Below, piece after piece: positions 10,448 through 34,469 of a stretch of 35,964 nucleotides of DNA. This DNA comes from a virus. A model generated the notes under the pieces. That model worked only from the letters and a program-made list of their open reading frames with translations, did not search any database and was not told the origin of the DNA. The translations under genes and the position numbers were made by a program. Positions within the stretch are counted from its first letter, which is position 1. Every line of letters starts with the position of its first letter. The DNA is taken from positions 1 through 35,964 of the IMG/VR virus record IMGVR_UViG_3300010885_040507. One strand, given 5' to 3'.

Positions 10448-10448
10448 T

Positions 10449-12223: not shown

Positions 12224-12889
12224 TTAAATTCCATTATTACTTAAACTTTGAATTCGTATAGTGTAATCAATTTGAATTAACCTATTCAAAGATTTTTGTA
12301 CAGGGTGAAAAATAACGTGAGTTAATAATAATCCTGAATTTGGTCCGGAAGAACTATAAGATTTTAAGCCTAGTTCATCAAATACATATGCATCATCAGA
12401 TAAAGTTGCATTATCAAACGCACGTTGATCACTCGGTTCTCCAAAATCCAGTAAACAACTTACTAAGACATCGGTATATGCAGTACCTGAAAGATGTCGA
12501 GTTTCCATAAAATTTCTTGCAGGATCTAATGAATACGACTGTCTAGCATCTACAGTTTTATAATAAGTTTGATTATATAATGCTGCAACATTACCTGTAC
12601 TATTAGGTGTTAGATATGTAATAATTCCGGTTGGATCGACTCGAGTTCCCCCGTTTCCAAATACCATTTCTCCAATACTACCTTCGTTTTGATTCGATAT
12701 ACTTTGTGCCAATGCAATAGAAAAATTTTCGTAATGGATAGCATTACGTTTATCAACATATACTTCTTTACTAACAGGATCAAATATTTTAATATGACCC
12801 TGAACACCAACTCCACCTACTTCGTTAGGTTTAGATTGCGGAGGTAGTGTAGTATCGGTCGACGAATTGCTCATGTTATTATCTTTCAT
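12224..12889 (-). CDS. Conserved virion structural protein (T4-like marine phage type)
   Basis: A 221-residue protein. The first 20 residues are a polar flexible leader. The rest is one conserved-looking domain: HIKIFDPVSKEVYVDKRNAI, HYENFSIALAQSI, FGNGGTRVDPTGIITYL, LYNQTYYKTVDAR, YTDVLVSCLLDFGEPSDQ, YVFDELGLKSY, then HVIFHPVQKSLNRLIQIDYT and IRIQSL. I recognise this as the style of a structural protein recurring in marine T4-like myoviruses; its location in the virion is not known to me. Start uncertain: ATG at 12889 or at 12874. A NATAAATA motif ends 5 nt before the first ATG, so a late transcript may start too close to use it and the 12874 start (216 residues) may be the real one. Confidence 0.78.
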   Translation of the reverse strand: MKDNNMSNSSTDTTLPPQSKPNEVGGVGVQGHIKIFDPVSKEVYVDKRNAIHYENFSIALAQSISNQNEGSIGEMVFGNGGTRVDPTGIITYLTPNSTGNVAALYNQTYYKTVDARQSYSLDPARNFMETRHLSGTAYTDVLVSCLLDFGEPSDQRAFDNATLSDDAYVFDELGLKSYSSSGPNSGLLLTHVIFHPVQKSLNRLIQIDYTIRIQSLSNNGI

Positions 12890-14587: not shown

Positions 14588-15433
14588 TTAGGCTTCCAAT
14601 TGCAATAATGTTAGTGTTACATTGACAACTGCTGAGGAAGAATCTTTATTAGTAACTGACATATATAATGTAGTTGTTACCGGTGACTCACTATTGAATC
14701 CAAATACACCCGGAGTAATTAATTGAGTCAACGAGCCTGAAGTTGTGATAACTTCAGCAATAACACCAGTGCCCGGTAGTGCATCTGTTGCGTCAGTTCT
14801 AGTTAAATCATTAGTTCTAGCCGCTGTGCTGGAATAAATTCTAACCCAGGCAGGACGATCAGTAACAATGTTGGATAATAGATATGATTTATAAGCTACA
14901 ATTTGACAATATCCTGTAGTTCCGGAGGTTAAATTTCCCGTAGTTCCGACTAGATTTGATCTTGATGTTAACCCTAATCCCGTGCCAATTGACGCAGGTT
15001 GCCATTCGACTGCGGTTGAATTCCACAATAATGCTTGTCCATTAGTAGGAGTATATGTTCCTGTAGTATTAACGTCAATAAATTCGCTGATACTAGTTGC
15101 GGTATAAGCAAGGGGGGCTCCTACCAGTAATGAATAGGCGCCACTTGTGGATATTGCTGCACTGTTAACCCAAGTGGTATTATAATTATTACCATCTATT
15201 TTAGCTAATACTTGACCGGTAGAACCACCAACGGGTACTCCTAACCCATTAGTACCAGGAGTGCCAGGGGTGCCTGCGGCGCCTTTAAATGCAGCCGATG
15301 ATGACAGTTCCCTAATTATTTGAGTTCTAAGAGAACTCCAGGCAACTCGCCTAGTGAGGTTGTTATCCACTATAACAAATGTTGTAGCATTTGTTATAGT
15401 AGATAGCGTATTTAATAAAGTAATATTTGGCAT
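14588..15433 (-). CDS. Small tail fibre-like protein with collagen-like segment
   Basis: A 281-residue protein. The N-terminal 45 residues (ITLLNTLSTITNATTFVIVD ...) are followed by a short collagen-like Gly-X-Y run, GAAGTPGTPGTNG (about residues 51 to 63), and then by the common phage fibre motif GGSTGQVLAKIDGNNYNTTW. The C-terminal half is beta-rich (RPAWVRIYSSTAARTNDLTR, TPGVFGFNSESPVTTTLYMS) and probably forms the trimer head. This is typical of virion adaptor or fibre proteins of T4-like marine phages. It has one of the better ribosome binding sites of the block (AAGGA, about 8 nt before the ATG), embedded in the last codons of the giant gene, so it may be translated at a high level relative to that gene. 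Confidence 0.75.
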   Translation of the reverse strand: MPNITLLNTLSTITNATTFVIVDNNLTRRVAWSSLRTQIIRELSSSAAFKGAAGTPGTPGTNGLGVPVGGSTGQVLAKIDGNNYNTTWVNSAAISTSGAYSLLVGAPLAYTATSISEFIDVNTTGTYTPTNGQALLWNSTAVEWQPASIGTGLGLTSRSNLVGTTGNLTSGTTGYCQIVAYKSYLLSNIVTDRPAWVRIYSSTAARTNDLTRTDATDALPGTGVIAEVITTSGSLTQLITPGVFGFNSESPVTTTLYMSVTNKDSSSAVVNVTLTLLQLEA

Positions 15434-15434
15434 G

Positions 15435-18400
15435 TTAGTATCCTTCCAAGTTTTCGCCGTTTTCGTCAGTCAATGCAATACCATTGGCATAAAGTATTTT
15501 ATCCCCTCCATAGAAATACATATCCGGCAATGTAGCAGAACGTTGACGCAAGAATTGTGCTCTATTACCCCGTGTATCAATTGAATTTGAGTCACTGAAC
15601 AATGAGGTTGATGTATTTTCGTTCCATAATTTGCCTGTTCTCTGAATAACAGTTATTCGTGTACCTGTATTAATTGTTTCATTAATATTTAATATTAAAG
15701 TCTGTGTTGCAGTAATTATACTAAATTCAGGTAAAAGAGTAGTTATGCTATTTGGTTGGGCATAATACGAAACTGATTTATCATGGACGTCTAGTGAAGT
15801 TTTTCTTAATCGGCGACCGCCATAATAAACTTCTACTTGATCAATTGCTGCTGGAGGATTTACCATTGTACTGGTAGTTAACAATTGTATTCCGCTTGAG
15901 AAATTAGAAACTGAAGCAGGTAAAAATACTCCAGACACATCTCCCGATGAATTCACACTATAATTAGTAAGAGTGTTTGTTAATGTACTGATAATATATG
16001 TATTAGTGTTTGAACTATTGATATGTTGTATATTAATATTTTCTTCAGTATTAATTTTTTGATTAATACTTTGATCAATAACTGTTGTGTACTGATCTGA
16101 AAATTTAGCAGGCCCTGTTCCTAATGTGCCTCTTCTTAACCCACTTAGTACATTACCATCTTTAGCAGTGTATTCAATTCGTTCCCCGTCGAGTAATATA
16201 ACACCGGGTAATCTTAAAGTAGGATTAGGCTGGAATAAATGATCTCCATCTTCAACAAAAATTTGAGTATCAGTATATTGTAACGGTTGTGATAATCTAG
16301 TAGAAAAATATGTTGACAATCTTGAAAAATATTGACGATTGAACATATCGGAAAACATTCTATAACCTAGTATAAGTTGACCAACAGACGGAGGGTTTAC
16401 AACAGTAATAATAACATTAGCGTTGTTTCCTATTTCTATAGATTCAGCGAATACAATTGTTCTATAATCATCGAGCACTTTATAATCATAACCTGCAATT
16501 AACCACTGATTATTTGCTGTAATCCATACAAATGAGTCATTATATACTATGCCGCCCCTTAAAGAAACAGATCGTGCATTATTTAAAGTAAACCGTTCTG
16601 TTCTAATCATTGTATTATCATGGTCAGTAAATGAAGTTATTTTTACAGTACCTGTACTAATCGCCGATGTGAGATTTAATTGTGTACCAGTAATGATATA
16701 TTCATAATCCATTAATGGCATTACAGCTATTGCATCTCCATTAGTTATAGTGGGTAAAGCAAGTGTAAACGTTTGATTTATACCATTAATTGAAAAGTCA
16801 TATCCAGGACGAAGCTCTTCTCCATTTACAAATACTTTAACATTATCTAAATTATACACAGAAGGTCTGCTATTAACGGGGTCAATTGCAAAAGTCGTTA
16901 TGTTGTTAGAGATTTTGTAATAAGTTACCCATGGAGGTAATAACCTAGTTCTAGTTGATGTTGTTAAAATCTCAACTATTACTTTATCACTTACAGGTTG
17001 GACACTTCTAATTGTAGAATCAAGTGCAAACGTTGACGTTGACGTTGCAACTGTAAATAATTGTTCATGCACTCGATTAAATTTAGGAAGTAATCTATTA
17101 AAAAACCATGCTTCAACATCATATATATTCCCAGGTGTTAATCCCTGTAGTTGAACTGATGCTCGGTTGTTCGTTGATGATACCGGTTTTAATATATATC
17201 CAAAAGAATATCCTTGCCCAATAGCAGTAGACGGACCCACTTCAATGCCATTGAATAGAACATATACACTTCGTACATCATCAATATACAAAGAACTTTC
17301 AACTACAATGACCCAATTACCAGGATTAGCATTATCATAATCCGGAGTAGTTGATTTGAAATTACTATCGGTTGTTGCATCCGACCCGACTGTAATATAT
17401 GTATATCCCACACGTATATTATTTGGTTGAGCCGGTATTACTATTTCATCTCCTATAATAGAGTATTGTGTGTTCTTAGTAAAATTTTCAGAAGCTACCC
17501 TGTCAAATTTTATTCCATTACCGTATACTAAAAATCCAGCAGGAGTTTGATATAAAAAGTTTAATTTAGCTCTGGTATTAGATAAAGTTTTTCCTAAAAC
17601 TCCTATTACACCAGTCATTACAAATGGGTAGGAAGGAGTTGATACGGTATAAACATTAATACCCAATGCATCTCGAACCTGCCCCGGAACACATTCTTCT
17701 GGTGCATAACTATCTATAGCATTTAAAAAATTATTGCCATCAATAACAATATCTTCTGGTCTGTATCCTATTATTTTAGAATTGCTAAAGTCAGGAATTG
17801 AATCTGAGTTTATTAGGCTATCTAAATAACCATTTGTTCCCGGATTAGTTTTCCAAAATTCTAATTGTGTGGAACCATATATTGATACTTGTAAATTGCC
17901 AGATACCATAACAACGGATGGGTTTAAAGTATATACTGTTACTACTGCCCTATTTTTACCGTCAGTGGATGGTGTTATCTTGTATACAATAGGATTATTC
18001 CAAGGAGGCAATGGCCAAGTAGAATAATCTACGCTGCCGCCGGCAATTCTGTTATCTCCGCCCGGAGCACCAGTACTTACAATTGTAGAAGCAGTAGTAC
18101 TTAAAACAATTTTAGCTTCTTTTGCAGTATTATAATATACTCCAGTTTGGATAGTTATTGAAGATGTAGATGCCACTGTTACAGTATTAATATATTCTAA
18201 TAATCTACCATTTAACGGGATATTTTTAATAATACTTAGTAGTCTAAATGCAGGTGGTATTTTTGAAGCCGGTGCCTCGCCAGTTGATTCATAGTAATAT
18301 GGTATATTTGATACTGTTCCATTAGAATTATAATAAGGTTCGTCCCAAAATGCAGATGCTGTACTACTTACCGCATATCGTAAACGAGTAATAATTGTAT

Positions 18401-21400
18401 TATCATTAACAATCTGTTGTATCTCATATCCGGTACTAAATGAATCATCGAGGAACGCCTCTACGTCAGGAAGAGGCTGGGCACTATAATAAGTCGGTGT
18501 TCCCCAATATATAGGTGCGGTAGAAGTGATAATGATTCCACCGCCTGTTGTTTGCCCGGTAATTCGGGCCGGCGTATATAACCCTGTATTTGTAGGAATT
18601 CTTGTTAAATCTTTATTAAATATCGCTGGATCAAAGAGTTGCAGATAACTATATCCCATTCCGGAGACCACTGACGAAAATCCAGTTACTGTATTATCTG
18701 TTTTAATTGCTGTCCATGTTGAGGTAGTCCCACCTAATGACGAGCTAAAATATGGAAGAGGAATAGTTATTGACACTACTCCTGTGGTTGTAAAGTTAGT
18801 GTTAATTCTGATTCCACTGATTCCATTTCCATATAATCCACGTACCCCCGTTAATGATATGGAATCATTTACTTCGAGACTTGTACCAATCAATCCTGAA
18901 AGAACAATGGTCAATGTAGAATTAAAGGCTGTGCCGGATGAATATACCCTAATGGGATATAAGGTAGGAGCACCACTACTAAACGATATGCCATCTTGAA
19001 AAACTGTTGATATTGTTGTATTCTTTCTAAAATATTCACCAGGGTTGCTACCTACTACTGATAGTTGCATTCCGGCTACTAGCCCTGTTGAATCCGCTAG
19101 TTGGACACCTTCGTACCCTTGGTTCAACGGAGAAAGAAATGTATCTATTATTTTATAATCACTAATTGAATCATACCATGATATAGTATCATACGGAGTA
19201 TCTAGATTATCCCAATTTGAAGATTGGTTAAATGTAAGTCCTTGAACTACTGTACCAGGAAACTCTGCTCCAGAGATTAATAATGGTAATTCGTTACCTG
19301 GCATACTATCAGTAGGATCGTATAAGGCAGTTATTCTGTCAATGGCATTATATAATTTTATATTTTTAACATATGAAATTTTAAATACTTGACCAAACGA
19401 CGGAAGCTGATTTAAAAATATAAATTTAGCATAATGTCTAATTTCTTGAGGAGTTAACGAACTATTAACAACACTTGTATAATATCTATAGCGATGGTCT
19501 ACTGGTTTTTCTCCTTCCCAAGAATTTTTAGGAAACATTGCGGTAACATTGGTCGGGTTACTTTTAATGTCGGTTTGATAATATTCAATTGTATAATCTG
19601 TAGAAAATATTAATTTTCCATTAAGCAACGGAACAATTTGTGTTTTGTCTGCAGAAGGCAACCATGATAATGTGAATTTATTGGTTACACCGTCACAAAT
19701 AAATTCATCAGATGCATTTAAATCTGTTAAATCACCAACTAATGAAACTCTATCAAATTTCATACCAATAGTATTTTCTCTAACTGTATCATTAAGCATT
19801 ATTACTGATACTCTAGCAACATCGGTAACTGCTCCTCCACCCGTAATAGTTACGCTAGGTGCAGTTATATAACCACTACCTGGATTGGTAACTATTACTT
19901 CATATAGACTACCATTTCTAATATATGCATCTGCGGTTGCACCGGTTCCTGTATCACCTGTTGCGGAAACAATGGATACTATAGGTCGTTGTGTATAACC
20001 TGATCCTACATACCCAACCTTTATTAATCCTACATATAATTTATAATTATTATTCCAATCTTTCCAAGGAGTTGTGGTTATTAATCCTGTAGTAGCAGTT
20101 GATACAGGGACTATATCAAAAGAATTAGTTGTTCTGTTATAAACTGAAGGGAAATCAAAATCAGTTGTGGATAAATTGGCCTGTTCTAAATTGCTATATA
20201 TTGATGAGTAGCTTCTTATCTTAGTACGATACGGTTTAATTTCATTAATGTATTTTTCAAAATATAACTCATTGTTCAATTGATATACTGGATGTTGATT
20301 CAATAATCCGATATTATGTGTTACATTAATAAATGATGTTTTAAATGCCCAATCTAATAATTTTTGTTCAGTTAGGGCATACTTTACGGCAGTAAAAAAG
20401 AACAAATTCCAGTTTATTTTTAATTCATTAATAAAAATATTATCACGCAATGCCACAAGAATATAATATATTTCTAAGTCGGGAGTCTCATCATATGAAG
20501 TTTCATCAATATCAGATTTATCATATGCATATTTTCCTAAATTAAAATCCCATAATGTGTCAAGTAATTTAATTGTACCATTTTCTTTATATATAATATT
20601 ATATGAAGGTGTAAAATTTCCATTGTTGGATGTCTTTTCAAGTATAATAAATGAACCGTCACCTCCATTGTTAACTTGTACATAATTACCAACTTCAATA
20701 TCAGTAATAGAAGGTAGTGCAAATAAATCTGATATGGTGTAATTAACTGATTTAAATTTATTAAAAGTGTCAGATTGCCAATCAATTATTTTCCAAAATA
20801 AGGTAGTATTATATTGTTGAGTATGTACTTTAACCCAAGATCGTTTTGTATAATCAAAGGCGTGTTTTGTCCATTTATTTCCACTTGTACTATTAATTTT
20901 TACAATGGCAGTATGTGGTCTTACAATTGCACGTATAGGACCGCTAGGAAACTCATTTCCCGAATTAGTTATTGTAACTGAAACTAATTTTCCATAATTA
21001 TCTATTTCAGTTACAAATTCTGCGGAGATAGCACTATCTGTAAGTACAATAATTTTTGGAGAAATAATATATCCAAACCCCGGATCTGTAATAACTACAC
21101 TTTTTATTTTTCCATTATCTGCATAACAAATTATTTCAGCTTGTTTATATTTTATAGTATCTATTCCAAATAACGTATCAAGATCTTCAACTAATACATC
21201 ATATTCATAAGATGCTGCTACGGGGATTTCTTCTTTCTTATTAAGATTTTCAAACGAATAAATTCCAATAATTCTATTCTTTAACAATACAGAATTTACA
21301 AAAGATACTAAAGTACGTAATGCTTCTATTCTATTTTTAAATAATGTTTGTTGAGGTCTAATACCTATTCCATATCTATTTCTATCAGTTAATGATATAC

Positions 21401-24400
21401 TAGGAACAAGATTGCCTAAGGAGTCATGTCCTATTAGACTGTCAAATAATTTTTTCTCTAATAATGTATTAGGAACTGATTTGAAATCATTCTCATTTAA
21501 TAATACCCATTCCGTATGTTTTGGTATAATTGCATTATTATCAATTGCAATATTTGCATTAATTCTATCACCAATTAATAATGATTGTACATTAGCAAAT
21601 GCGATTGCATTGGTCGATAATATTTCTATGAATTTTAAACCATTAGATACTGGATCTGCAATATAACTAGCAACCTGATATCCACTTAATCTTCTATTTT
21701 TAATTCCAGGTAATGTAACCTTATTTTTAACCCAGAAATAATATACATTTTCAAAAGATCCTGTTACATTATTAAATAATTGTTTAATTGAAATTGCACT
21801 ATTGTTAACATACTTCGGTTGTCCACTAATACCATTAATTAATCCTTTATTAGTATCTGCCTGAGCTGCCCATTCACTGGGTAATAAATCTGATTTAACC
21901 CATTCATATACATCGATAGTTGCTCCTGGAAATAATTTACCCCAATTATTTTTTCTAAATATTTCATTGCCTTGTTCGTACCATTGATATTTTGCTGTGC
22001 TTAGATCCCACCATAGTTGGCCAATATGATCGTCTATCCAACTAGTTGCTGAATCAACAATTATTCCTGCAAACCCGATTGAATATGTTGCTGGATCAAA
22101 TGCTGCCCTATATGTTAATTCTTGATCAGCAAGTCCTGCAATTTTACCTTTTAAAGGATCAATAATATCTAAGTATTCTATAACTTCTTCTTTTAGGGTA
22201 TCAATTAATGAAATTCGATGTATTCCAGAAACATCAACTGTATCTTCCTGTTTTCTTAATAATTTCCAACTTTGGCTAGCTGTATTAATTTTATTAAAAA
22301 TATAAAATTTAGATTGATCAGTATTACTAACCACATCAGCTGCGGGAGCTCCAACAAAAACATTATCATTAGTAACTACTAACGAAAATCCATATTTACT
22401 GCCGGATATCGTTCCAACATCATTTAATTCATCTGCCTGAATAAATTTTTCACCAATTTTATTATATAGGTATACTGTTCCGCCATCGGGTACACTACCA
22501 TAAAATTTAGTTGATGAATTATCAAATGTAGTTTCGCCTATATTAGAATTTTTATCAAATGTTTGAGTTTTACTTCTATTCTTTCCCAGTGCTCCAACAC
22601 CGATAGTATTATTATCTTTACTAATAGATATAGAATAACCAAATTTTAAATCACTAGCTGGTAGTGGATTACTTATAATTTGATCTAATGTAAACGTTGC
22701 AGCCAATGCTGTTCGTTCCTCCATATGCTGAGCATAGTCTTCTGGATATAATGTATTATTTCGTACTATTAATTCATCAAAAAGACTTTTATCAGTATTA
22801 CTAAATGCAATATCAGACGTTATTGTAAATGCAAGTCCTGCTGATCCGTTATAGTTGAGTGCTGTAACAGTCAATATATGTGTGCCCTGAGTAACAGATA
22901 TTTCTCTACGAGTACCCGAAACTCCATATGCGTATGCAATTAATTCATTGTCCAAATACACAACTGCAAAATCATTAACGGATATTTCAAATATGAATGT
23001 ACCGGTTCGATTAAACATAACAGAGGTTGAAAAATGTAGCACTGGTGCGCCGTCTGCATTCCATACCGCATGTCTCTGCATAAAATCATTCCATGAATAA
23101 TCAGGATAGCCTGGACTTATTGGAGTTGTTGCTACAACAAATCCATAATCAGTATCTGTGCTTCGTCGAGCACCCCTTAGGCCGTCTGCTAATTGTCTAG
23201 AATCTAAAACATTAAACTTTGTTCCTAACCCATTTTCCATCCAATATCTAATGTCAAACTCGTTGGGATATAATTGTGCGTCAGGGTGATTTTGATATGC
23301 ACTAATTACTCTTGCCCTGGAATCTACTATAGGGGTTCCTTCATTTAATCCATCGTTAATAACTGCATCTACTGCTCGTTGTGCATCATAAATTGCTGCA
23401 TCTTCAGGATGCGCTGACCTATATGTAATCCAATATTGATTAAATCCTGCAAGGCCATTAGTCATCCAGTATAAAATTGTTGTTTCCCCATAATATACAG
23501 GAGCTAATAAATTTTCTGCAAGAGCCAATATAACTTGGGCACGAGATGCTACATACTCAACTATATTTCCCAAATTTTTATATATTGCAACTTTACCATA
23601 TGGCTCGTTGGAGTTCTTGGCATAAGGTGCAGAAATTAACATGTATGTTGCATCATTTGAAATTGCAATATCGTACCCAAATTTGCCATTTGCTCCGAAT
23701 GGGGAGTTAATAGTTTGTTCGAGCTGTAACTTATTATTATAAGTTTGTACTACTCCTCCCGTTGTAGATGCATTATATTCGGGCGCACTGATTGCAAACC
23801 CTCTAATACTGCCCACAATTTTATGACCCCAATTACTACCATTAGTTAATGTTACGGCAACAGAGGGGCGTACCGATAATACATTTGTTAAATGTGCAAA
23901 TCCTGTAATTGTTGCTGTTGAAGTTGCATTAGTTGCAGTTGTTAAATTTAATTTATAAGCAAAAACATATCCCGTAGAAGAACCAGGAGCACCTACTAAT
24001 AAAGTAGTCGAGGTTGTTGCAACAACTTGATTAATAGCAATTGAATAACCAAATTTGGAATTAGTTGCCGTAGTAGTCAATTGACCATACGGATTTACCA
24101 ACACAATGTTAACATCAATCTTTCCATGATCTTCAGATCTACTACTAATTTTAACTAATCCCTCATTTTCCCAAGACTTTATTGCACCAGTACCTGTGCT
24201 TAAAATTACAGTACCCGTGCCTATTGAATGCGAGCTAATTGAACTTGCTAACGGTGCACCGGTGATATATAACTTTTTACCTATATCGTATTGTAGAGCG
24301 TGACCAAAGTCACTAACATGAGTTGAGGAAGCATATGTTTTATCATTTGAATTTAGGACATAATCATATTGACGTTTCCATTCATTGTTTACTCGATTGT

Positions 24401-27400
24401 AAACTTTAACTCTGCCATAATTATACATTGCAGGCGTATGCCAGTTGGGTGATGACACCAGCAGTACTGGACTATCGTCAGATGCCCAAATAGACGATCC
24501 AAATTCTTGATCAAGTGGGGTACCTGCTGTGTTTACAACAGTTACCTTGTAATTTTTAATTTTTTCATAAACTTGCCATTTATTATCAGTACCACTATCG
24601 ATCCATATCTTATCACCTATATTAAATTTCAACAGGTCGCCAATTTCTGATAAGTGGGCAAGATTTGGATATCTAACATTTTCAAATCGATATAATCCAC
24701 CATAATTTATTAATTTAGCATTTTCAATACTAGTCAGCGAGGAGGCAACTGCAAATTGATTTATAGATGGAATAGCCGTAACGATATAAACCCCATTAAC
24801 TTGTTCATTAAATCTGACTACAGAAATAATGTCGCCTATAGTAAGATTATGATGTCCATCAGTAACAAATGTTATTTCGCTAGTCGGCGCACTGACAAAT
24901 ACTCCGGTTACTTTTGATAATTGTTTAGTATATCGATAAACTGCCCAGTCACTATTCTCTAAAAATCCTAGCCATACAGTAATCCCATCTTGTATCATGG
25001 CGTTATTTGCAATATCTAATAAACTGTTTTTACTATATGCTGTGGTTGTAACATCATCAAGGCGGACATAACCCGCAGTAGTTAATACTATATTGTTATT
25101 AATTAATGTTCCAGAAATGGACGGTATTGTATTAGCTGCAGAATAATCATCAGGAGTCAATAACAACTTTGAAGTTGTTACATAATTAATTAATGGATTA
25201 GCATCAACTGGAGTGTTATCAACAAATTTAACAACGTATGGATTTTCTAAAGCAGTTCCCTCAGGTAACGTAAATTCTATTTCATTATAAGTTTCAAAAC
25301 TTCCATAGTTTCCTATTCTAAATGCCCATTCTTCTTTATATGATAATTCTCCCTTATTACTAAATTGCTCTGCTTTTGACAGTTTATTAACTGCATTTTT
25401 AGTTCCTTTATCTTTTATAAATCCTTGATAAAATTTATATTGGCTAATAGGGTTAGAAAAAATATTATTTAAATAACTTCTAGGAGTATATCCAGTAAGA
25501 TGCTGTGCCAATCGTTGCTGACCAGAATCAAAATTATCAATATTTAAACTATAAAAATCTTCAAATTGATCTACCTTATAATCAAAATTAGGTAACAGTT
25601 TTGATATAGGTTTACTGGGCAACTGCGCCCATTTAGTAAAATTAAATTCTTTAGAAGAATCAATTTTTGTCAAAGACTGATAATATTTTCCATTATATCG
25701 CACAACTGCACCAGGTACGTATAGTTTATAAGATTGCCAATCAGTAATATTAACATCATCAAAAACAAACCCAGGACTGAATAAATCACCATTCCAGTTT
25801 TTAGTTCTAAATCCCGAAAGTTTAATACGTTGTTGTTTATAACCCGTAGTAATATCATATATAGTATCATTGAATACTGTATAATTATTAAAAACTAATG
25901 CATGTTCTTTTTGTACAGAATTTAATATTGCAAAAAATAATCCTTCATTAGCATCTGTAGTTTTAATGGTACAAACAGTATCTTCTCTAGACATAGTAAA
26001 TCTATCGATAGGATATGGTTTTCCGTCAGCTTTTAATAAATTATATTCGTATTTTTTACCAGATATATCATCCACTACAGAATTAGGAAAATTATATTTT
26101 AAACTATTTGCAAAAGGAGATAATGTAATTAAATTGCCATCTGCAAAATTTTGAGTAGTCCAATATAAAAATTCTTTGCCTGTAAATTTCCAATTTAAAA
26201 TTTCGTTGAGATCAGTATTAAAGTCATCAAAAATAAATCCTTGTTTTTCAAGAAATGCGCCATATCCTATGATTATATCATATACTTCTTGTACTGAAGA
26301 AAATACAGTACCATATGGAATTTTAACTATGACATTTTCAAATGATTTAGAATGTTGTGCAGATGCTCCCCCCGTAACTGGTAACTCTGGCAATTGCTGA
26401 TATAATGATAGATCAAATGATGTTTCTGCATTGTGCCCTATCTTAACTCTATAAAATCTATTATTATATCTTACTAATTGCCCTTGTTTATAATATCGTG
26501 TAGTAGATGAACTAGCAGATGTTATATCAACTGAGCTCAGGCCCGCATTAACATTGTTTACAACATTAGACCAATCAGTAAATTCTTCAGACACGCCGCC
26601 AACTTTAACTGCACCATCTACAGAAGTTTTTATCGGTTTTAATATTTCAAAATAAGGATTTTTAATATCGTATCCTTTAATTTTAAAATTACCATTAGAA
26701 CGTTGAACTATAATTCCGGATATTCTAGAAGTAGTAATGGGATTGCTAACATTTAAAATTAAAGAATAATCTTCCGACGGTAATATAACTCCAGGACTTG
26801 TTGATGTTGGATTAATTGAATCAATAATAATTTGCAATTTGTCTTTAGAAACAAATCCAGCCATCTTATGAAACAAATTAATATCAAGATAATCTATATC
26901 CTGTCTTAATTTTTTAATATAATGTTGATTATCTCGGCGACCATTTTCTGCAACATAAACTCCATAACCAGCAATCTGATTATCATTTTCGCCGTCAATT
27001 ATTAAATTTTTAAGATTTAAATAATTTGTATTATATATAACTTGACCTGCTGAATTTATTGTAGTTCTACTTAAATCATATTGTGTGGCACAAAATTGCA
27101 CAGGATTAAGAATAGCCAGTGCCGCACATACTGCAAATGGATAATTACTTGTTAATATGGTCCAAGAATTATCTACAGGCCCGCCGCTTCCAAATTTCCA
27201 GTTAGCAGTTTTATCAAAATATGTATTATCTAATGTTAACAGATTAATTAAATTTGGTAATAGATTTCCATTAACATCAACTGGAATAATATTTAATAGT
27301 CCTGGGCGAGCATAATTGGGAAGATACGTATTTGTTCCTCTAACATATCCATTTTGCAAATCAGTCCATAATAGTGTATTAGTTGATCTATACGGCGGAA

Positions 27401-30400
27401 ATCCGTAATATCGAGTCCACCAAGAGGGCCGATCAAAAAATCCAAGCATCCGAAAAGGGACCAAATTTGGACGCGGCGTCTCATAAAAATAGTACATAAA
27501 TCTAGTTATAGAGACAGGTTTCTTAAATATCTTATCAAGTGCTCCGTCATAATTCCAAGTTTCTTTACGTAGGGGATCAAATGTACTATTGGTTGTACTA
27601 TCTAAACCATACGTCCCTGCCCATGTAGAAAAATCAGCTTCAATTATTTTATTTAAATCATCTTGATTATAATTTAAATTTCTAAATATCCCAGGTTGTG
27701 CTGCAATGGAATCATAAATTTTATTATTAAATCTAACTTTAATATTATTATAAACACGTTTCTCATATTCTAAAATGATATTATCTCTATAATCTCCATA
27801 TGGTAGATAAAAAGAACCATCGTGTGCCAAAATAACGAATTGAGCAATAGTAGTGCTTACGCTTACACTTACAATTGCAGGAACGGTGGCAGGATACATT
27901 CCTAATTTAGAAGGAGTGGGGGGAATATAACATCCGGTTGTATCTAAATAGCAATCGATAGTTAATACGTCATTTACAGCCAATGGTACTATTATAGTTA
28001 TTGAATTAGTAGTATCATCAAACTGGTATTCATTTCTAGTACCAATTAATTGAATACCGTTACGATATACAATAACTGATTGAAAACTTAAACGATTAAT
28101 ATCAAAATTAAAATTAATCGGGTAAGAAACAATTGTAATATCAGTAATTGTAATAGTTCTTACAATTTTATTTTTTCCATATCCTAACATATCAGACGTT
28201 CGATATAAAGAATTAATATCTTTTCCGTCATTTATAATAGTTAATGCTAAATCAAGTGCATCAGATGGGGACAAGTTACTATCAATTTCTTTAATTACTC
28301 TTAAAAAATTTAATTTAAATTGTTGATAATCCTTACCAGCATTTCTTATTGCGTTTACTACATTATGTTCTTTTTTTCCAAAAAAGAATTGTGCAAATAC
28401 CAACGGGGTAGAGCTAATAACTAAGCGAGATCCGTATTTTGTGTAATTCGATATATCTCTTAAGTTATTAATAATACTACTACTGGTGTTATTGATCATT
28501 GTTGTCAAATGATCTGTTAATTCGCCCAATGTTAAACTATTTAAAGATTGATTTAATGGATTATGTGATAAACTAATAGGAGTTTCATAATATCCATTCT
28601 TATTAGGCATCTGGTCAGTAAAGATTTTTAATAATACAACATCATTAGCAGAAAATGTAGAAGATGTTGTTACGTTGACCTGTTTAGCTGATGAAACTAC
28701 TGTAATAGGAATTTTTACATTATTAATATATGCAAAAACAACTATATTTGTATTGATAGGTAAATCTAAACAAGTTAATGTTAATGTGTTTGTAGTAGCA
28801 ACAATTGTTTGAAATTCTATTATAGGAATTTTATGTTCAACTCCAGGAGCCCATATATTAACCAGTGTACCATTTAATTTTAAAAATGTATCTCCTGTTG
28901 AGACCGCGGAGGGTATATTATCTGTTGTAATTAATATAGTATCTGCTATAAAATAATTTTTAAACAGATAGCTATTACCATTAGTTTGATATTTTAATGG
29001 AAATCCTAATATAGTATCATTGTTTCCTGTTCCTATTTCATATCCAAAAATTTGATTTCCTGTAAAATTATTAGAATCATTAATTTCTGTATAACTAATC
29101 CCAGCAGCATTAAACAAATCAAATAAAGGTGGTTGATTTATTTTTGTATGTTGTTGTGCATATATCCATTTAGTTGAAATGTTATCAAAATGCCAACTGG
29201 TACCGGACAAAGTAGATCCTAATTTTACAGTTAACGAATTTGAATTTACTGGCGTACTATCTAGAATTAATTTTAATATTGGGATCGGGCCTGTTATATC
29301 AAAATTAACTTTATATATTTTTCCACGAACATCATAATTAGTGTCAGCATTAAAAATTATTCGATGCCCTTGTTGAAGCTGAATCCCATCAACATAATAT
29401 CCATAAGAATTATGTACTTGTGAAAATACATCAACTGTAGTAACATCAATCAAATCAACATTTTGAACACTTGTAATTCCAAAGTTATATAATTTTAAAT
29501 TTGCTCTAAATTCAATGATGGGACGTTTTGCGATAGTATCAAGTGGAATGATATTAGGTAAATTGTTTATTTCATTTGAAATTTTAATAATGTCTTTATG
29601 AAACCATCTATTATATTGTGACCAGGAATTCATGTCAACACTGGCTCTATTAATAGTAATATATTCAGGTGTCAACGGTACCGGTCTATCTGCATCAAAA
29701 GAATAATTATCAAAAGTAGAAGTGTCAAATGTTTCATTTAATACTGTGGATATTAGTCCGTATGATGATAAAGAATTAAACTCGATTAATATAATTGAAG
29801 ACCCGACTCCTTCTACTATATACTCTTTATTCCTATACTTTAATTCAACGTTGGAAGAAAATAAAAGTTTCATGCCATTACTTAATGCATATCCATTACT
29901 CATTACATATGATTGTTTTCCAATTATATTATTTTCAATTGTAAAATTTTCTAAATTACTAGGAAATTGAATAGCCACAGGCCCGATAGGTAGCCAACAA
30001 TAATTGTTAAAATTAACAAGTTTATCCCAATCAATTAATGGGTCAAAAGAATATGTGTTAGATTTAAATAATTTATTAAGATCGTTAGTTAATCCCCCCT
30101 GATTTTTTATTTCATTAATTAAGTCATCATATGCAATTACATCAGTTATATTATTAATTGAATCTTTTAAAACTAATGCAGGTTCGAGAGCATAGCTATT
30201 TCTTAATTCGGAAGTATCTGTTAGATAAGAATCAGTTAATGGATTATAACTTGGTGTTAATTTAGACCCCACGAACCCGTCAATTCGTTCAACTTGGGGC
30301 GTTTGAATTAATTGATCAATTGTACTGGCTAAAAATTTAGAATTTTTAGCAGTTCGCAAAAATTCTGGTAATAAATTAACTGATTTTTTATTGTCTGCCA

Positions 30401-30401
30401 T
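15435..30401 (-). CDS. Giant baseplate-region structural protein, 4,988 residues
   Basis: One uninterrupted reading frame of 14,967 nt, starting two bases after gp6 with GGA in good position. Approximate residue positions: an N-terminal domain (VNLLPEFLRTAKNSKFLAST; WDKLVNFNNYCWLP near 125); two CBM5/12-like chitin-binding motifs near 1305 (GQLVRYNNRFYRV) and 1562 (GAVVRYNGKYYQSL); FENVIVKIPYGTVF near 1351; FG-GAP blades between 2030 and 2680, interrupted by a repeat pair and a PA14-like domain (2285 to 2535); two GxGYxxxP modules (3108, 3464); EQKLLDWAFKTSFINVTHN near 3345 and YINEIKPYRTKIR near 3383; SYAPEECVPG near 4232; and LLDGERIEY...GLRRGTLGT near 4735. At least four NGxxLxxGxDY beta modules occur (about 780, 3587, 4524, 4627). 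It occupies the place of T4 genes 7 to 10. The blocks after residue 3000 resemble large structural proteins of marine T4-like phages. Function inferred: baseplate wedge or peripheral fibre. Confidence 0.85.
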   Translation of the reverse strand: MADNKKSVNLLPEFLRTAKNSKFLASTIDQLIQTPQVERIDGFVGSKLTPSYNPLTDSYLTDTSELRNSYALEPALVLKDSINNITDVIAYDDLINEIKNQGGLTNDLNKLFKSNTYSFDPLIDWDKLVNFNNYCWLPIGPVAIQFPSNLENFTIENNIIGKQSYVMSNGYALSNGMKLLFSSNVELKYRNKEYIVEGVGSSIILIEFNSLSSYGLISTVLNETFDTSTFDNYSFDADRPVPLTPEYITINRASVDMNSWSQYNRWFHKDIIKISNEINNLPNIIPLDTIAKRPIIEFRANLKLYNFGITSVQNVDLIDVTTVDVFSQVHNSYGYYVDGIQLQQGHRIIFNADTNYDVRGKIYKVNFDITGPIPILKLILDSTPVNSNSLTVKLGSTLSGTSWHFDNISTKWIYAQQHTKINQPPLFDLFNAAGISYTEINDSNNFTGNQIFGYEIGTGNNDTILGFPLKYQTNGNSYLFKNYFIADTILITTDNIPSAVSTGDTFLKLNGTLVNIWAPGVEHKIPIIEFQTIVATTNTLTLTCLDLPINTNIVVFAYINNVKIPITVVSSAKQVNVTTSSTFSANDVVLLKIFTDQMPNKNGYYETPISLSHNPLNQSLNSLTLGELTDHLTTMINNTSSSIINNLRDISNYTKYGSRLVISSTPLVFAQFFFGKKEHNVVNAIRNAGKDYQQFKLNFLRVIKEIDSNLSPSDALDLALTIINDGKDINSLYRTSDMLGYGKNKIVRTITITDITIVSYPINFNFDINRLSFQSVIVYRNGIQLIGTRNEYQFDDTTNSITIIVPLAVNDVLTIDCYLDTTGCYIPPTPSKLGMYPATVPAIVSVSVSTTIAQFVILAHDGSFYLPYGDYRDNIILEYEKRVYNNIKVRFNNKIYDSIAAQPGIFRNLNYNQDDLNKIIEADFSTWAGTYGLDSTTNSTFDPLRKETWNYDGALDKIFKKPVSITRFMYYFYETPRPNLVPFRMLGFFDRPSWWTRYYGFPPYRSTNTLLWTDLQNGYVRGTNTYLPNYARPGLLNIIPVDVNGNLLPNLINLLTLDNTYFDKTANWKFGSGGPVDNSWTILTSNYPFAVCAALAILNPVQFCATQYDLSRTTINSAGQVIYNTNYLNLKNLIIDGENDNQIAGYGVYVAENGRRDNQHYIKKLRQDIDYLDINLFHKMAGFVSKDKLQIIIDSINPTSTSPGVILPSEDYSLILNVSNPITTSRISGIIVQRSNGNFKIKGYDIKNPYFEILKPIKTSVDGAVKVGGVSEEFTDWSNVVNNVNAGLSSVDITSASSSTTRYYKQGQLVRYNNRFYRVKIGHNAETSFDLSLYQQLPELPVTGGASAQHSKSFENVIVKIPYGTVFSSVQEVYDIIIGYGAFLEKQGFIFDDFNTDLNEILNWKFTGKEFLYWTTQNFADGNLITLSPFANSLKYNFPNSVVDDISGKKYEYNLLKADGKPYPIDRFTMSREDTVCTIKTTDANEGLFFAILNSVQKEHALVFNNYTVFNDTIYDITTGYKQQRIKLSGFRTKNWNGDLFSPGFVFDDVNITDWQSYKLYVPGAVVRYNGKYYQSLTKIDSSKEFNFTKWAQLPSKPISKLLPNFDYKVDQFEDFYSLNIDNFDSGQQRLAQHLTGYTPRSYLNNIFSNPISQYKFYQGFIKDKGTKNAVNKLSKAEQFSNKGELSYKEEWAFRIGNYGSFETYNEIEFTLPEGTALENPYVVKFVDNTPVDANPLINYVTTSKLLLTPDDYSAANTIPSISGTLINNNIVLTTAGYVRLDDVTTTAYSKNSLLDIANNAMIQDGITVWLGFLENSDWAVYRYTKQLSKVTGVFVSAPTSEITFVTDGHHNLTIGDIISVVRFNEQVNGVYIVTAIPSINQFAVASSLTSIENAKLINYGGLYRFENVRYPNLAHLSEIGDLLKFNIGDKIWIDSGTDNKWQVYEKIKNYKVTVVNTAGTPLDQEFGSSIWASDDSPVLLVSSPNWHTPAMYNYGRVKVYNRVNNEWKRQYDYVLNSNDKTYASSTHVSDFGHALQYDIGKKLYITGAPLASSISSHSIGTGTVILSTGTGAIKSWENEGLVKISSRSEDHGKIDVNIVLVNPYGQLTTTATNSKFGYSIAINQVVATTSTTLLVGAPGSSTGYVFAYKLNLTTATNATSTATITGFAHLTNVLSVRPSVAVTLTNGSNWGHKIVGSIRGFAISAPEYNASTTGGVVQTYNNKLQLEQTINSPFGANGKFGYDIAISNDATYMLISAPYAKNSNEPYGKVAIYKNLGNIVEYVASRAQVILALAENLLAPVYYGETTILYWMTNGLAGFNQYWITYRSAHPEDAAIYDAQRAVDAVINDGLNEGTPIVDSRARVISAYQNHPDAQLYPNEFDIRYWMENGLGTKFNVLDSRQLADGLRGARRSTDTDYGFVVATTPISPGYPDYSWNDFMQRHAVWNADGAPVLHFSTSVMFNRTGTFIFEISVNDFAVVYLDNELIAYAYGVSGTRREISVTQGTHILTVTALNYNGSAGLAFTITSDIAFSNTDKSLFDELIVRNNTLYPEDYAQHMEERTALAATFTLDQIISNPLPASDLKFGYSISISKDNNTIGVGALGKNRSKTQTFDKNSNIGETTFDNSSTKFYGSVPDGGTVYLYNKIGEKFIQADELNDVGTISGSKYGFSLVVTNDNVFVGAPAADVVSNTDQSKFYIFNKINTASQSWKLLRKQEDTVDVSGIHRISLIDTLKEEVIEYLDIIDPLKGKIAGLADQELTYRAAFDPATYSIGFAGIIVDSATSWIDDHIGQLWWDLSTAKYQWYEQGNEIFRKNNWGKLFPGATIDVYEWVKSDLLPSEWAAQADTNKGLINGISGQPKYVNNSAISIKQLFNNVTGSFENVYYFWVKNKVTLPGIKNRRLSGYQVASYIADPVSNGLKFIEILSTNAIAFANVQSLLIGDRINANIAIDNNAIIPKHTEWVLLNENDFKSVPNTLLEKKLFDSLIGHDSLGNLVPSISLTDRNRYGIGIRPQQTLFKNRIEALRTLVSFVNSVLLKNRIIGIYSFENLNKKEEIPVAASYEYDVLVEDLDTLFGIDTIKYKQAEIICYADNGKIKSVVITDPGFGYIISPKIIVLTDSAISAEFVTEIDNYGKLVSVTITNSGNEFPSGPIRAIVRPHTAIVKINSTSGNKWTKHAFDYTKRSWVKVHTQQYNTTLFWKIIDWQSDTFNKFKSVNYTISDLFALPSITDIEVGNYVQVNNGGDGSFIILEKTSNNGNFTPSYNIIYKENGTIKLLDTLWDFNLGKYAYDKSDIDETSYDETPDLEIYYILVALRDNIFINELKINWNLFFFTAVKYALTEQKLLDWAFKTSFINVTHNIGLLNQHPVYQLNNELYFEKYINEIKPYRTKIRSYSSIYSNLEQANLSTTDFDFPSVYNRTTNSFDIVPVSTATTGLITTTPWKDWNNNYKLYVGLIKVGYVGSGYTQRPIVSIVSATGDTGTGATADAYIRNGSLYEVIVTNPGSGYITAPSVTITGGGAVTDVARVSVIMLNDTVRENTIGMKFDRVSLVGDLTDLNASDEFICDGVTNKFTLSWLPSADKTQIVPLLNGKLIFSTDYTIEYYQTDIKSNPTNVTAMFPKNSWEGEKPVDHRYRYYTSVVNSSLTPQEIRHYAKFIFLNQLPSFGQVFKISYVKNIKLYNAIDRITALYDPTDSMPGNELPLLISGAEFPGTVVQGLTFNQSSNWDNLDTPYDTISWYDSISDYKIIDTFLSPLNQGYEGVQLADSTGLVAGMQLSVVGSNPGEYFRKNTTISTVFQDGISFSSGAPTLYPIRVYSSGTAFNSTLTIVLSGLIGTSLEVNDSISLTGVRGLYGNGISGIRINTNFTTTGVVSITIPLPYFSSSLGGTTSTWTAIKTDNTVTGFSSVVSGMGYSYLQLFDPAIFNKDLTRIPTNTGLYTPARITGQTTGGGIIITSTAPIYWGTPTYYSAQPLPDVEAFLDDSFSTGYEIQQIVNDNTIITRLRYAVSSTASAFWDEPYYNSNGTVSNIPYYYESTGEAPASKIPPAFRLLSIIKNIPLNGRLLEYINTVTVASTSSITIQTGVYYNTAKEAKIVLSTTASTIVSTGAPGGDNRIAGGSVDYSTWPLPPWNNPIVYKITPSTDGKNRAVVTVYTLNPSVVMVSGNLQVSIYGSTQLEFWKTNPGTNGYLDSLINSDSIPDFSNSKIIGYRPEDIVIDGNNFLNAIDSYAPEECVPGQVRDALGINVYTVSTPSYPFVMTGVIGVLGKTLSNTRAKLNFLYQTPAGFLVYGNGIKFDRVASENFTKNTQYSIIGDEIVIPAQPNNIRVGYTYITVGSDATTDSNFKSTTPDYDNANPGNWVIVVESSLYIDDVRSVYVLFNGIEVGPSTAIGQGYSFGYILKPVSSTNNRASVQLQGLTPGNIYDVEAWFFNRLLPKFNRVHEQLFTVATSTSTFALDSTIRSVQPVSDKVIVEILTTSTRTRLLPPWVTYYKISNNITTFAIDPVNSRPSVYNLDNVKVFVNGEELRPGYDFSINGINQTFTLALPTITNGDAIAVMPLMDYEYIITGTQLNLTSAISTGTVKITSFTDHDNTMIRTERFTLNNARSVSLRGGIVYNDSFVWITANNQWLIAGYDYKVLDDYRTIVFAESIEIGNNANVIITVVNPPSVGQLILGYRMFSDMFNRQYFSRLSTYFSTRLSQPLQYTDTQIFVEDGDHLFQPNPTLRLPGVILLDGERIEYTAKDGNVLSGLRRGTLGTGPAKFSDQYTTVIDQSINQKINTEENINIQHINSSNTNTYIISTLTNTLTNYSVNSSGDVSGVFLPASVSNFSSGIQLLTTSTMVNPPAAIDQVEVYYGGRRLRKTSLDVHDKSVSYYAQPNSITTLLPEFSIITATQTLILNINETINTGTRITVIQRTGKLWNENTSTSLFSDSNSIDTRGNRAQFLRQRSATLPDMYFYGGDKILYANGIALTDENGENLEGY
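22255..24325 (-). other. FG-GAP beta-propeller region split by a PA14-like insertion (inside the giant gene)
   Basis: Six FG-GAP-type blades can be read in the giant protein, with the family's FGxS/A...VGAP spacing: DFGHALQYDIGKKLYITGAP, SKFGYSIAINQ...LLVGAP, WGHKIVGSIRGFAISAP, FGYDIAISND...LISAP, LKFGYSISISKD...VGALG and SKYGFSLVVTND...VGAP. Between blades four and five lie about 330 residues: two copies of an SRAxVI...YWMxNGL...FN repeat (23430 to 23546 and 23205 to 23321; period 225 nt) and a PA14-like beta domain (about 22797 to 23114). Integrin-like propellers and PA14 domains commonly bind glycans or proteins. Boundaries are approximate. Confidence 0.6.
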
Positions 30402-30403: not shown

Positions 30404-33400
30404 TTAAGTTCCGCTCGATGTTACAATTAATGATTGTGAATTTAATTGTGATGCGGTGATAGCATCAATTATTTCAATGTCTGAAACAGTCGCACTACTA
30501 ATAAAAATTTCATTAGACAAACATGTAATTTCGTATAGGCTACCAAAACTTCCAATGTTTTTAGGAGTAATGATAAAATTAGTTATATCAGGCGATAAGG
30601 AATTCATTACATACGTCGACAATTCACTAAAATAAAATGATTGCCCAAACTCCCAATTTTCAAGTACAAAAAATTCATTTATTGCGGTTAATATTCTAGT
30701 TTTTAAATCATTATCAGTAGTGGGCTTTTGTGAATTTCTTACTGCTTTAAATTTAGCTTGTAAACTATTTGACGCATTAGATCCAAACAATATCTTATAT
30801 TTTACTGAATGAAAAATAATCTCATCGCTTATTGATTTTATTGGCTCTAAATATTCTAAATAATTTTGTTCTAATTCGCTACTAGTAGGGGTTAAAGGTT
30901 CAGTGGGTATATTTCCCAATAACCAACTTCTAATTGCATTATCATATCCGGTAGTTAATACATAAATGTCCATGATATTTGATTTGCTAGGATCTACTCT
31001 ACGAGTGGAACTACTATTATGAACATATTGAAAACTTAAACCGCTGCGTCCTACTCGAGCAAAATATTGATTAGTATATACTAATTGTTGCAATGTGTTT
31101 GACCAATACTTAACTACGTTTAGTGTGGGATTATAAAAATAAAATAAATCTCCATCAGCAACTGCATTTGAACTGTTTATAACAGCTATTTTATAGGTAA
31201 AAAAATCTGATTCTGTATCAAAAGACAGTATTCCGTCAACTAACGTATATCGCAAGCCGTTTGTTGTTTTTTTAAAATACACAAAATTAGTTTTAGCATT
31301 ACTAACCAAATCAACATGCTCGGGATTAACAATACTAGTGAAGGCATCGGGATCTTCTATTTGTCCTGTATTATTATAATTATAGAAACTTACTTTTACT
31401 TTGTTAGGCTCTACATATCCGTCTGGTTCAATTATCGGGCCATCTATTTGCCACTCATAATTTAATCCAATATTACTAGAAAAACTGTTACCTTGCAACC
31501 AAATACCTGAGATATTTCTATAAACATTATTAATCTTTGCATTAACATTGATATAGTAATCCCCATTATTAGCAGTAACAGCAGCAGAAGGAGCGCCTGA
31601 CCCACTTAACCAAGCTCTATTTGATTGTGGTTGTGGGTTAGTTTCAAGAACTACAATTTTATCTTTAATAATGGAATTGGTAGAAAAATCATAATTTATA
31701 GAACTAGTATCTATATAGAAAGATGTATCGGACGAACTTTCAAATATAAAATCTAAATTTCTATAACGGACTTTATAATTTTTTCCTGTCCAAACAAATG
31801 CAATTATCCAACTACTGTCCAATCCCACATCGTCAACATTACCTTGAACAGATAAATTAAAATCATTTATAAGATTTAAATTAGAATTTAAAATTATTTC
31901 CCATTGTCTAGAACTAACATTTATAGTTAAACCAAAATTGCGTTGTCCCATGCATAAATTGACAATTTCAGTCTCAATTGAATTATTTAATATTTGAACA
32001 AATTTTGGAATTACTTCCACTGGAATTGCGCCCGAGGGGATGCGTGATGAAAGAATTACAGGACCAGTTCCGTTGTCTAGTTTGCCGGCTCCATTATTAC
32101 TGCCATCACCGATAACTTGATAAACAGAGGTCCACACATAATCTTTACCGCCATTGGGTACTATCCCGGATACAGGAATTGATATTAAATTATTATTTTG
32201 ATCAAAATATTTTCCGGAAGTAGGAATAAATTTAATTAATGATCCCGGTAATGCATATCGTAAACCAACATCTGAGTAATCCCCAATAGACACAGGACTT
32301 GCAATTGTTTTAAAATACCCGCTACTTTGACCGGGAGTTTTATTAATTTCCATCCAGGATAGTTGTAATGACACCAATGAAGGATTACTATAATTATTAA
32401 AATAAAACGATCGCAAGGCAGGGGCTGCTACTATGGGTGCTAACTTATTTTTAACCACTGCAAGTACTTGATTTTTGCTAGTAAATTCAAATTCAAAATA
32501 TGATTCTGACGGTTCTTGATATAAAATACCATCATTAGCAAATATATTAGTTTTACTATAATTTCCGGTTATGTCTGATAAATCAAAATATTTGCTCAAC
32601 CCACTACTGACTCTATTAATGCTTTTTATCTTTAATATATCAGTACCTGCACTTAACGGAGCAATATTGTAATCTTCTCCAGTAATCATTCTATTTTGCA
32701 AATAATAGTTTTGAGGTGCTTTAGTTTGAATGCTAGCGTTGCTTTCTGGTCCTGCACTATTATTAACAGTGTATTGTAAACTAAGTGTTAATTGCAAATT
32801 ATGAGATTGTCCTAATGAATTAGTATATGGCAGCTGAATAACAACTCCACTCATTTGTTCAGGTTTAATTACATATGCTTTACCATTACTTTGTCTGTAA
32901 AATAATTTAAAATTACCTTTAGGTAAATCACCAAATACTCCATCTGCAAAATTCAAATCTATTTGATCATTATCTCTAGGGCTGATTGCATAAATGGTTC
33001 GTAAATCTTTATTGAGACTATTATATATAACATTATTGTTGTTGGATGTTGTAGGAACATCTGTCCATAGCGTTGAATAGTTACCTTTTGCATCCAATTG
33101 CCATAACCAAACGTCAGTATCATTAATATCAGGGGTATTAATACCTACAATTTCATTTGGAACTGGATTATCTAATGAGAATGAAACAAGACTCATAGTG
33201 CCTTGTTTAAACATGGTAAAAAATCCTGTGTCAGGACTACCTGTTCCTTGATTGTCATTTTTATAAACAAAACTAAATGCACTACCTGGTTTAGGAGGTG
33301 CTTCATATATGTAGGTATTATTGTTAAAAGTACATGGAGTTACTTCAAATCCCATAGATACTCCATCAATATTTTTATTATAAGTGAATAACGGAACATC

Positions 33401-34461: not shown

Positions 34462-34469
34462 TATTTATT
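34462..34469 (-). promoter_or_regulatory. Late promoter-like motif AATAAATA upstream of gp25
   Basis: Minus-strand AATAAATA overlaps the stop codon of the spike gene and ends 4 nt before the gp25 ATG. It fits the NATAAATA late form, but the distance leaves no room for a leader, so it is either fortuitous or drives a leaderless transcript. Confidence 0.45.

Follow-up and report, generated by a model that had tools for sequence, protein, structure and literature searches.

The 35,964 bases of the IMG/VR virus record IMGVR_UViG_3300010885_040507, a linear fragment called the window below, hold a single open reading frame (ORF) of 4,988 residues whose product, here named the giant, is probably the baseplate-wedge scaffold of a jumbo myovirus of the RaK2/PA5oct type, standing in the position of gp7 and carrying an optional docking peptide at its C terminus. 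According to the ORF listing and translation, the frame starts with ATG and runs without an internal stop, giving a protein with a computed mass of 555.6 kDa. It takes up 14,967 of the 35,964 bases (41.6%), with 2 nucleotides between it and gp6 (30404-33973) and 1 nucleotide between it and the next gene (14588-15433). An earlier note on this DNA had described one unbroken frame covering about 42% of the window, placed two bases after gp6 and one base before its neighbor, and the ORF coordinates bear this out. The same note called the protein several times longer than any T4 baseplate protein, which also holds, as T4 gp7, the longest compared, has 1,032 residues. An open frame of such length does not arise by chance. 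The giant and the gene before it are as follows.

15435..30401, minus strand: giant, PHROG 10938, proposed gp7-position wedge scaffold (ORF and profile match)
30404..33973, minus strand: gp6-type baseplate wedge protein of 1,189 residues (profile comparison)

The giant is a long member of PHROG 10938 (E 1.2e-275, over four stretches, the best being residues 573-1549), a known but little-studied family of jumbo-phage virion proteins, and it is not unique, the family already being present in databases as 'virion structural protein'. Searching with its first 3,000 residues by tblastn matched 57 phage records. Of the 40 matches listed, 38 come from records of 286-490 kb; the remaining two, which resemble the RaK2 match, come from short records of Klebsiella phages. 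No relatives were found by DNA megablast with the giant, nor was any found for residues 1-1180 in bacterial and archaeal genomes, a search that reaches close relatives only. Family members include RaK2 ORF070 (3,326 residues), 121Q gp582 (3,323, as annotated), PA5oct gp355 (3,857) and Atu_ph07 gp180 (4,449), together with the giants of Phosso (4,555), SCTP-2 (3,807) and Vibrio 2.275.O (3,771). The window's giant shares with the members of PHROG 10938 the single ORF after gp6 and the same conserved cores (residues 1-1960 and 2740-3450). It is longer than the seven isolate members compared (3,323-4,555 residues), and it alone among these has a helical/PA14-like insert, a C-terminal peptide and a fibre gene directly downstream.

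In total, 87 loci of relatives (numbered with an L) were compared, made up of seven isolates and 80 IMG/VR loci, the best 80 of at least 587 confirmed. The giant is a complete single ORF in 63 loci (3,326-5,149 residues, median 4,573), is cut by the contig end in 23, and is frame-broken in one, L063. Only that of L040 (L040:6205-21654), with 5,149 residues and four FG-GAP stretches in its propeller region, is longer than the window's. Directly before the giant stands gp6 in 74 of the 75 loci with an intact giant start, at a spacing of -22 to +113 nucleotides in the 74 that show both genes. The exception is the Salicola phage SCTP-2 (L004), where a 9,291-base ORF without a recognised gp6 relative precedes the giant (L004:8627-17917); this is possibly another fused baseplate gene.

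Evidence that the protein is part of the virion comes from relatives. The PA5oct record marks gp355 'ESI-MS/MS'. By place, and for gp245 also by size, phAPEC6 gp245 and CBB_236 are taken to be giants too. In the table for phAPEC6, gp245 (381.88 kDa, 17 unique peptides, 7.6% coverage) adjoins the baseplate wedge protein gp244 (PMC7247149), and in that for CBB, CBB_236 (21 peptides, 7.72% coverage) adjoins the baseplate wedge protein CBB_237 (PMC5259590). Gp180 is not named in the available passages of the Atu_ph07 paper (PMC6102473), and the giant is not discussed in those of the papers on RaK2 (PMC3622015), Alcyoneusvirus adsorption (PMC10253068), MIJ3 (PMC6892783) and freshwater jumbo phages (PMC9723584), or in those of a jumbo-phage overview (PMC13282480). 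A term search of a further overview (PMC7824862) returned no passage on it. In the literature searched, where subscription papers were mostly out of reach, no account of the giant's function was met.

The T4-like phages K571 and G2 share with T4 itself the gene order gp6-gp7-gp8-gp9-gp10-gp11-gp12, and the giant occupies the place directly after gp6, where these phages encode gp7. The absence of T4 proteins was scored in the genomes of relatives, namely seven giant-bearing jumbo records (that of the Vibrio phage is labelled a partial genome), with T4 positive in each profile test. The gp53 profile matched all seven, two of them over the curated cut-off. For gp8 (PF09215), none of the seven gave a match; for the gp9/10 N-terminal domain and for gp11 none gave one over the cut-off, with two weak matches for the former and a single weak match with stops for the latter. 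Within the giant itself, searched whole or in slices, Pfam likewise finds no gp9/10 N-terminal domain (PF07880). Tail_P2_I was tried as an analogue of gp7 and gave nothing over the cut-off in the seven genomes, with one weak match containing stops; this test says little, T4 itself being negative and unrelated control genomes positive.

Seven giant slices and nine neighbour families were compared by hhalign with nine T4 families, a total of 144 comparisons, in which the positive controls scored 95.6 (gp6-gp6), 95.4 (gp5-gp5) and 98.1 (collar-gp12). The only other pair above 20 was a C-terminal slice of the giant (4515-4726) and gp10 (probability 67, E 5.2e-5), with two consecutive modules paired with gp10 185-432. 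Like T4 gp10 and the XD modules of CBA120 TSP4 and of RaK2 fibres, the giant may have small beta modules, two of them in tandem in its C-terminal part; unlike gp10, it has no detected gp9/10 N-terminal domain, and its modules would sit on the baseplate giant. With T4 gp7 (PHROG 964) it shares the position after gp6 and a large size, but it is about five times longer and has no sequence or profile similarity to it. On these comparisons the giant stands where gp7 would be and appears to have some modules of the gp10 kind, but its descent from gp7 could not be demonstrated.

The architecture of the giant was read from an alignment of 63 sequences, the window's and 62 others, including the L063 fragment and omitting two exact duplicates. 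A continuous conserved core (1-1960) is followed by a length-variable region (1960-2750), a second core (2740-3450), a variable region (3600-4200), a moderately conserved one (4200-4790) and a variable end. The following parts can be placed on the window.

24522..30401, minus strand: conserved core, residues 1-1960 (alignment)
28584..28826, minus strand: docking-type (XD/T4gp10-like) module, residues 526-606 (fold comparison and hidden Markov model, HMM)
27942..28175, minus strand: docking-type module, residues 743-820 (fold comparison and HMM)
26445..26492, minus strand: CBM5/12 motif of the chitin-binding type, the first of two, residues 1304-1319 (position read by eye off a profile match)
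25668..25739, minus strand: second CBM5/12 match, residues 1555-1578 (Pfam match)
22152..24524, minus strand: length-variable stretch, residues 1960-2750 (alignment), with an FG-GAP repeat (propeller-type) at 2237-2266
23130..23504, minus strand: helical repeat insert, residues 2300-2424, also present in L009 and L027
22821..23129, minus strand: PA14-like insert, residues 2425-2527 (E 4e-6 to a cyanophage protein)
20052..22184, minus strand: second conserved core, residues 2740-3450 (predicted local distance difference test, pLDDT, 83.7; predicted template modelling score, pTM, 0.56)
19722..20006, minus strand: GxGYxxxP repeats, residues 3466-3560, with a further GxGY motif at 3108
16407..17018, minus strand: further docking-type modules, residues 4462-4569 and 4601-4665, aligning with T4 gp10 185-432
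15438..15512, minus strand: C-terminal 25 residues, proposed docking peptide (..IALTDENGENLEGY; co-occurrence with the anchor)

The structure predicted for residues 1-1180 has a pLDDT of 85.8 and a pTM of 0.82, and the two docking-type modules within it resemble modules of phage tail proteins (TSP4, T7-type adaptors) at VIA Z 7-8.2, clean fold rows having a root-mean-square deviation of 1.8-2.9 over 59-70 residues. HMMs of both modules find residues 4462-4569, and one of them also finds the other module. In a PDB sequence search, most matches to residues 1255-1960 were with modules of the CBM5/12 type from enzymes that act on chitin (best E 1.5e-4); the other three profiles gave nothing at E 0.1 or better. 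Pfam searches of N-terminal 150-residue pieces and of module slices returned nothing over the cut-off. For the core 2740-3450 no VIA row reaches Z 5, which is no proof that its fold is new. The fold matches listed for residues 1-1180 and 2740-3450 include none to the gp7 wedge core. Members of the family and unnamed entries (one of 750 residues) make up the strong matches in BFVD, and fibre and adaptor proteins come after them. The insert in the propeller region, helical and PA14-like, is otherwise absent from the full-length set; its helical part recurs in L009 (one copy) and in L027 (several copies, residues 127-535 of the giant fragment), with about two copies in the window.

These results fit parts of the earlier reading of the giant. 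Conserved blocks of marine T4-like phages had been proposed for its C-terminal half, and this can be upheld for a single kind of repeat: PHROG 460, which bears the name head closure Hc2, matches residues 3361-3524, and the gp8 profile PHROG 438 matches repeats at 7 places within the Phosso giant and at 8 within that of Atu_ph07. The rest had been described as a chain of binding modules, which is borne out only in part; apart from the CBM5/12-type modules, the cores 1-1960 and 2740-3450 have no convincing PDB sequence match.

The giant's C terminus changes with the gene that follows it. The interval between the giant and a conserved gene for a 221-residue protein, called the slot, is empty in most loci and holds a fibre gene in others; the slot fibres scanned carry collagen, collar, chaperone or lyase domains. 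In the window it is filled as follows.

14588..15433, minus strand: slot fibre of 281 residues with the N-terminal anchor MPNITLL..FVIVDNNLTRR.. (anchor model; a short collagen-like GxxGxx stretch by eye)
12922..14586, minus strand: subtilase (Peptidase_S8), part of the slot (E 9.5e-23)
12224..12889, minus strand: 221-residue conserved partner (PHROG 11259), at the far end of the slot (profile match)

At the start of some slot fibres stands a short anchor with the consensus MPNITQLP..T..T.FVVVDN...KR..Y..L. A giant encoded before such a fibre ends in about 25 extra residues like those of the window (..LTDENGxPLEGY type), and a giant directly before the 221-residue gene usually terminates close to an LPDKYYYG-like or LPE-like stretch. 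Iterated HMMs for peptide and anchor were applied to every row in which the end of the giant can be seen, 77 in all (the window's and those of 76 loci). Both were found in 20, the peptide only in 0, the anchor only in 6 and neither in 51 (Fisher p 1.6e-13); without the seeds the counts are 15/0/6/51 (p 4.7e-11), kinship being ignored in both tests. Kinship can be taken into account with a FastTree tree of residues 2740-3450, built from 76 of the 77 rows (L063 omitted; the program warned of long branches), in which supported branches carry no fewer than 11 changes of the anchor. In 11 independent pairs the peptide agrees with the anchor in 8, opposes it in 0 and shows no difference in 3 (p 0.0078), or 11/0/0 (p 0.00098) with six divergent tails accepted by eye. 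Slot genes other than fibres, such as a GIY-YIG/NUMOD3 endonuclease-like gene (L003) and a nitroreductase-like gene (L028), go without the peptide. This pairing of peptide and anchor is a new point of the analysis, not met in the parts of the literature that were searched.

A second set, with the models frozen, gave a similar picture. A scan with the 221-residue family yielded 80 loci, 74 of which show the giant's 3' end; 22 were dropped (same contig, or >90% identical over the last 200 residues) and 52 kept. Both elements were found in 8, the peptide only in 0, the anchor only in 2 and neither in 42 (p 6e-8). By eye, the giant's end is extended in all 12 of the 52 loci with >300 nucleotides between the giant and the 221-residue gene, among them L173 and L180, which pass neither model. 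The association was also approached from the side of the anchor: 30 of 67 loci were examined (from one group of 58, the 21 whose match reaches the anchor, and all 9 of another group), and the full N-terminal anchor is present in 24, every one of which has a peptide-bearing giant directly upstream. Eight of these 24 are contigs already counted and some others are near-copies. L219 and L253, from the same search, are not anchor-like and show no upstream gene. Seeking the anchor in isolates with three single sequences gave chance rows or none.

Among 22 longer records, the anchor model matched 7, in every case in the slot behind the giant as judged by coordinate arithmetic, and found no match in the other 15, which include the seven isolates and T4. 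One of the seven matched records, G005, has a second anchor match elsewhere (E 1.3e-6), in two tandem collagen fibres of which the model found the second and the first was recognised by eye. They are preceded by a 909-residue protein that does not credibly resemble the giant (best E 2.5); its last residues are GIIITDSDGNALLVE, which the tail model matches at E 0.0031.

L200:15803-18532 and L199:2536-8018: the 909-residue protein of G005 and its tandem anchor-type collagen fibres

Docking of this kind has precedents. In the published model of branched receptor-binding complexes, a short peptide on the incoming protein meets a T4gp10-like module on the anchored one (PMC6872550), and T4gp10-like docking is also invoked in the phi-Kp24 paper (PMC9700779). 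As in the branched fibre systems, a short conserved peptide accompanies a partner gene here. Compared with those published accounts, the polarity would be reversed, with the proposed peptide on the C terminus of the scaffold and the folded anchor on the fibre.

The remaining genes of the window complete the setting. Two further baseplate genes lie before gp6.

34020..34457, minus strand: gp25-type wedge protein (profile match)
34468..35952, minus strand: gp5-type hub protein (profile match)

Where T4 gp5 has a lysozyme, this hub protein gives a match to a chitinase/endolysin domain of GH19 (Pfam E 1.1e-6; PHROG 181 E 4.8e-36). The 221-residue protein, with a mean column identity of 72% in 15 sequences, is present in single copy in all 11 giant-bearing records searched and is not found in T4; a PDB sequence search with it gave nothing better than E 0.27. 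It could well be a core partner in the baseplate. Beyond its gene, at 7758-12221, three fibre-type proteins are encoded, one with a T4 gp12-like collar domain. Among the 70 loci whose slot can be seen, 8 have the subtilase, and 7 of these also have a relative of the window's 281-residue slot fibre. On the plus strand, at 26-7753, PHROG names include a QueE-like radical SAM fragment, an exonuclease, an ATPase, an HNH endonuclease and a thymidylate synthase.

Other explanations of the giant must be weighed. One could suspect that it is an assembly or sequencing join of separate genes, as the relative L063 is split over two frames, but the chance of this is negligible. The break in L063 is one frame change (L063:13070-13110), after which reading continues in another frame, and not a gene border; a biological change and a sequencing error are both possible. 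Complete single ORFs were found in 63 cases, in isolates as well as in uncultivated contigs, and an assembly artefact was rejected on finding the same single frame directly behind gp6, or behind its positional counterpart, in seven isolate records. The earlier note had itself named such a join, or homologues split at the same points, as fatal to its claim; across the 87 loci no relative is divided at module borders. Cleavage of a precursor into several virion proteins, possibly through a protease of the phage, would leave the virion without any 555-kDa molecule; this is improbable. It would fit the low peptide coverage in the published tables for relatives cited above and the subtilase encoded nearby. 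However, a protease present in only 8 of 70 slot loci cannot be needed by the family, and large low-copy proteins also give low coverage. A somewhat better, still unlikely, alternative is that the giant is a peripheral fibre, whisker or hair protein, the role of gp7 being filled by an unrecognised protein such as the 221-residue partner. Modules of carbohydrate-binding, propeller and PA14-like type would suit a surface protein, the giant lacks gp7 homology, and jumbo relatives have tail whiskers according to the CBB (PMC5259590) and phAPEC6 (PMC7247149) papers. Against this, residues 1-1960 and 2740-3450 are conserved across the family, unlike variable fibres, the giant keeps its place after gp6 in 74 of the 75 loci with an intact start, and separate fibre genes exist alongside it. 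For the peptide, the most serious competitor, unlikely but with an appreciable chance, is hitch-hiking: the recombination that brings a fibre would replace the last codons of the giant, the peptide having no binding function. Peptide and fibre are adjacent in the DNA, and one exchange can move both. However, the peptide pattern stays recognisable over the 11 or more separate changes, non-fibre slot genes bring no peptide, and a similar ending stands on the unrelated 909-residue protein before anchor-type fibres.

Several results weigh against the scaffold and docking interpretation preferred here. The gp7 profile (PHROG 964) finds nothing in the seven jumbo genomes and is positive in T4, and in hhalign the probability for gp7 is at most 2.3% over 16 profiles and at most 0.4 for giant slices. 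The Z of 7-8 for the docking modules is the level that the tool itself calls common background, and Foldseek against PDB gave no match at 1e-3 for the models of residues 1-1180 and 2740-3450. The anchor-only loci of the first set (L026, L036, L046, L065, L072 and L075) and of the second (L142 and L176) fall below the peptide threshold, and their divergent tails were accepted only by eye. L051 combines another fibre start with another giant ending. The anchor presumably resembles the widespread ISELP-type start of phage fibres, and a related KISEL-type anchor occurs in four loci of other phages (L222, L224, L229 and L231) behind a gene without the peptide. The peptide might also travel with recombination at the gene end without binding anything.

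Taken with these points, the claim that the giant replaces gp7 to gp10 stands in part: position speaks for it, as does the failure to recognise gp7, gp8, the gp9/10 N-terminal domain and gp11 in seven of seven genomes, whereas there is no gp7 homology and the likeness to gp10 is confined to docking-type modules. The related proposal of a fused wedge plus fibre gains from one intact baseplate-region protein with indications of docking modules. Separate fibre genes remain, however (7758-12221, with the gp12-type collar fibre, and 14588-15433), so a single chain uniting wedge and fibre would be too simple a description of the giant. What makes a fused wedge plausible is the position and the missing proteins, not homology.

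In the scaffold model, the conserved N-terminal core would join the gp25-gp6 wedge, and the chain would run outward with T4gp10/XD docking modules, chitin-binding-type modules, an FG-GAP propeller with lineage-specific inserts, and the second core. One chain may then do the organising work that is spread over gp7 to gp11 in T4. The last 25 or so residues would be an optional docking peptide seating the N-terminal anchor of the exchangeable fibre encoded by the next gene, with peptide and fibre gained and lost together. The analysis shows the intact gene, its family and gene order, the T4 proteins missing from relatives, part of the module content and the co-occurrence of peptide and anchor; the place in the baseplate, the gp7-like role and the physical contact between peptide and anchor are what we infer, and a portable docking pair is suggested by co-occurrence only. 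The wider version of this model is offered tentatively, as a close call: a portable connector of two parts, one being the peptide of about 25 residues at the C terminus of the giant or another scaffold and the other an N-terminal anchor of about 45 residues on the fibre of the next gene, would let fibres be exchanged by joint gain and loss on a common wedge-to-fibre chassis that merges the work of gp7-gp11.

A virion protein of 3,300-5,100 residues beside gp6 recurs across a large lineage of jumbo phages, although its database entries are labelled 'virion structural protein' or 'hypothetical'. If true, a role as wedge scaffold would explain the absence of recognisable gp7-gp11 in these phages, and it makes the giant a direct target for cryo-electron microscopy in isolates that grow on laboratory E. 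coli. If the peptide binds the anchor, the pair would give a simple rule for recognising fibre genes in metagenomes and matching them to their baseplate.

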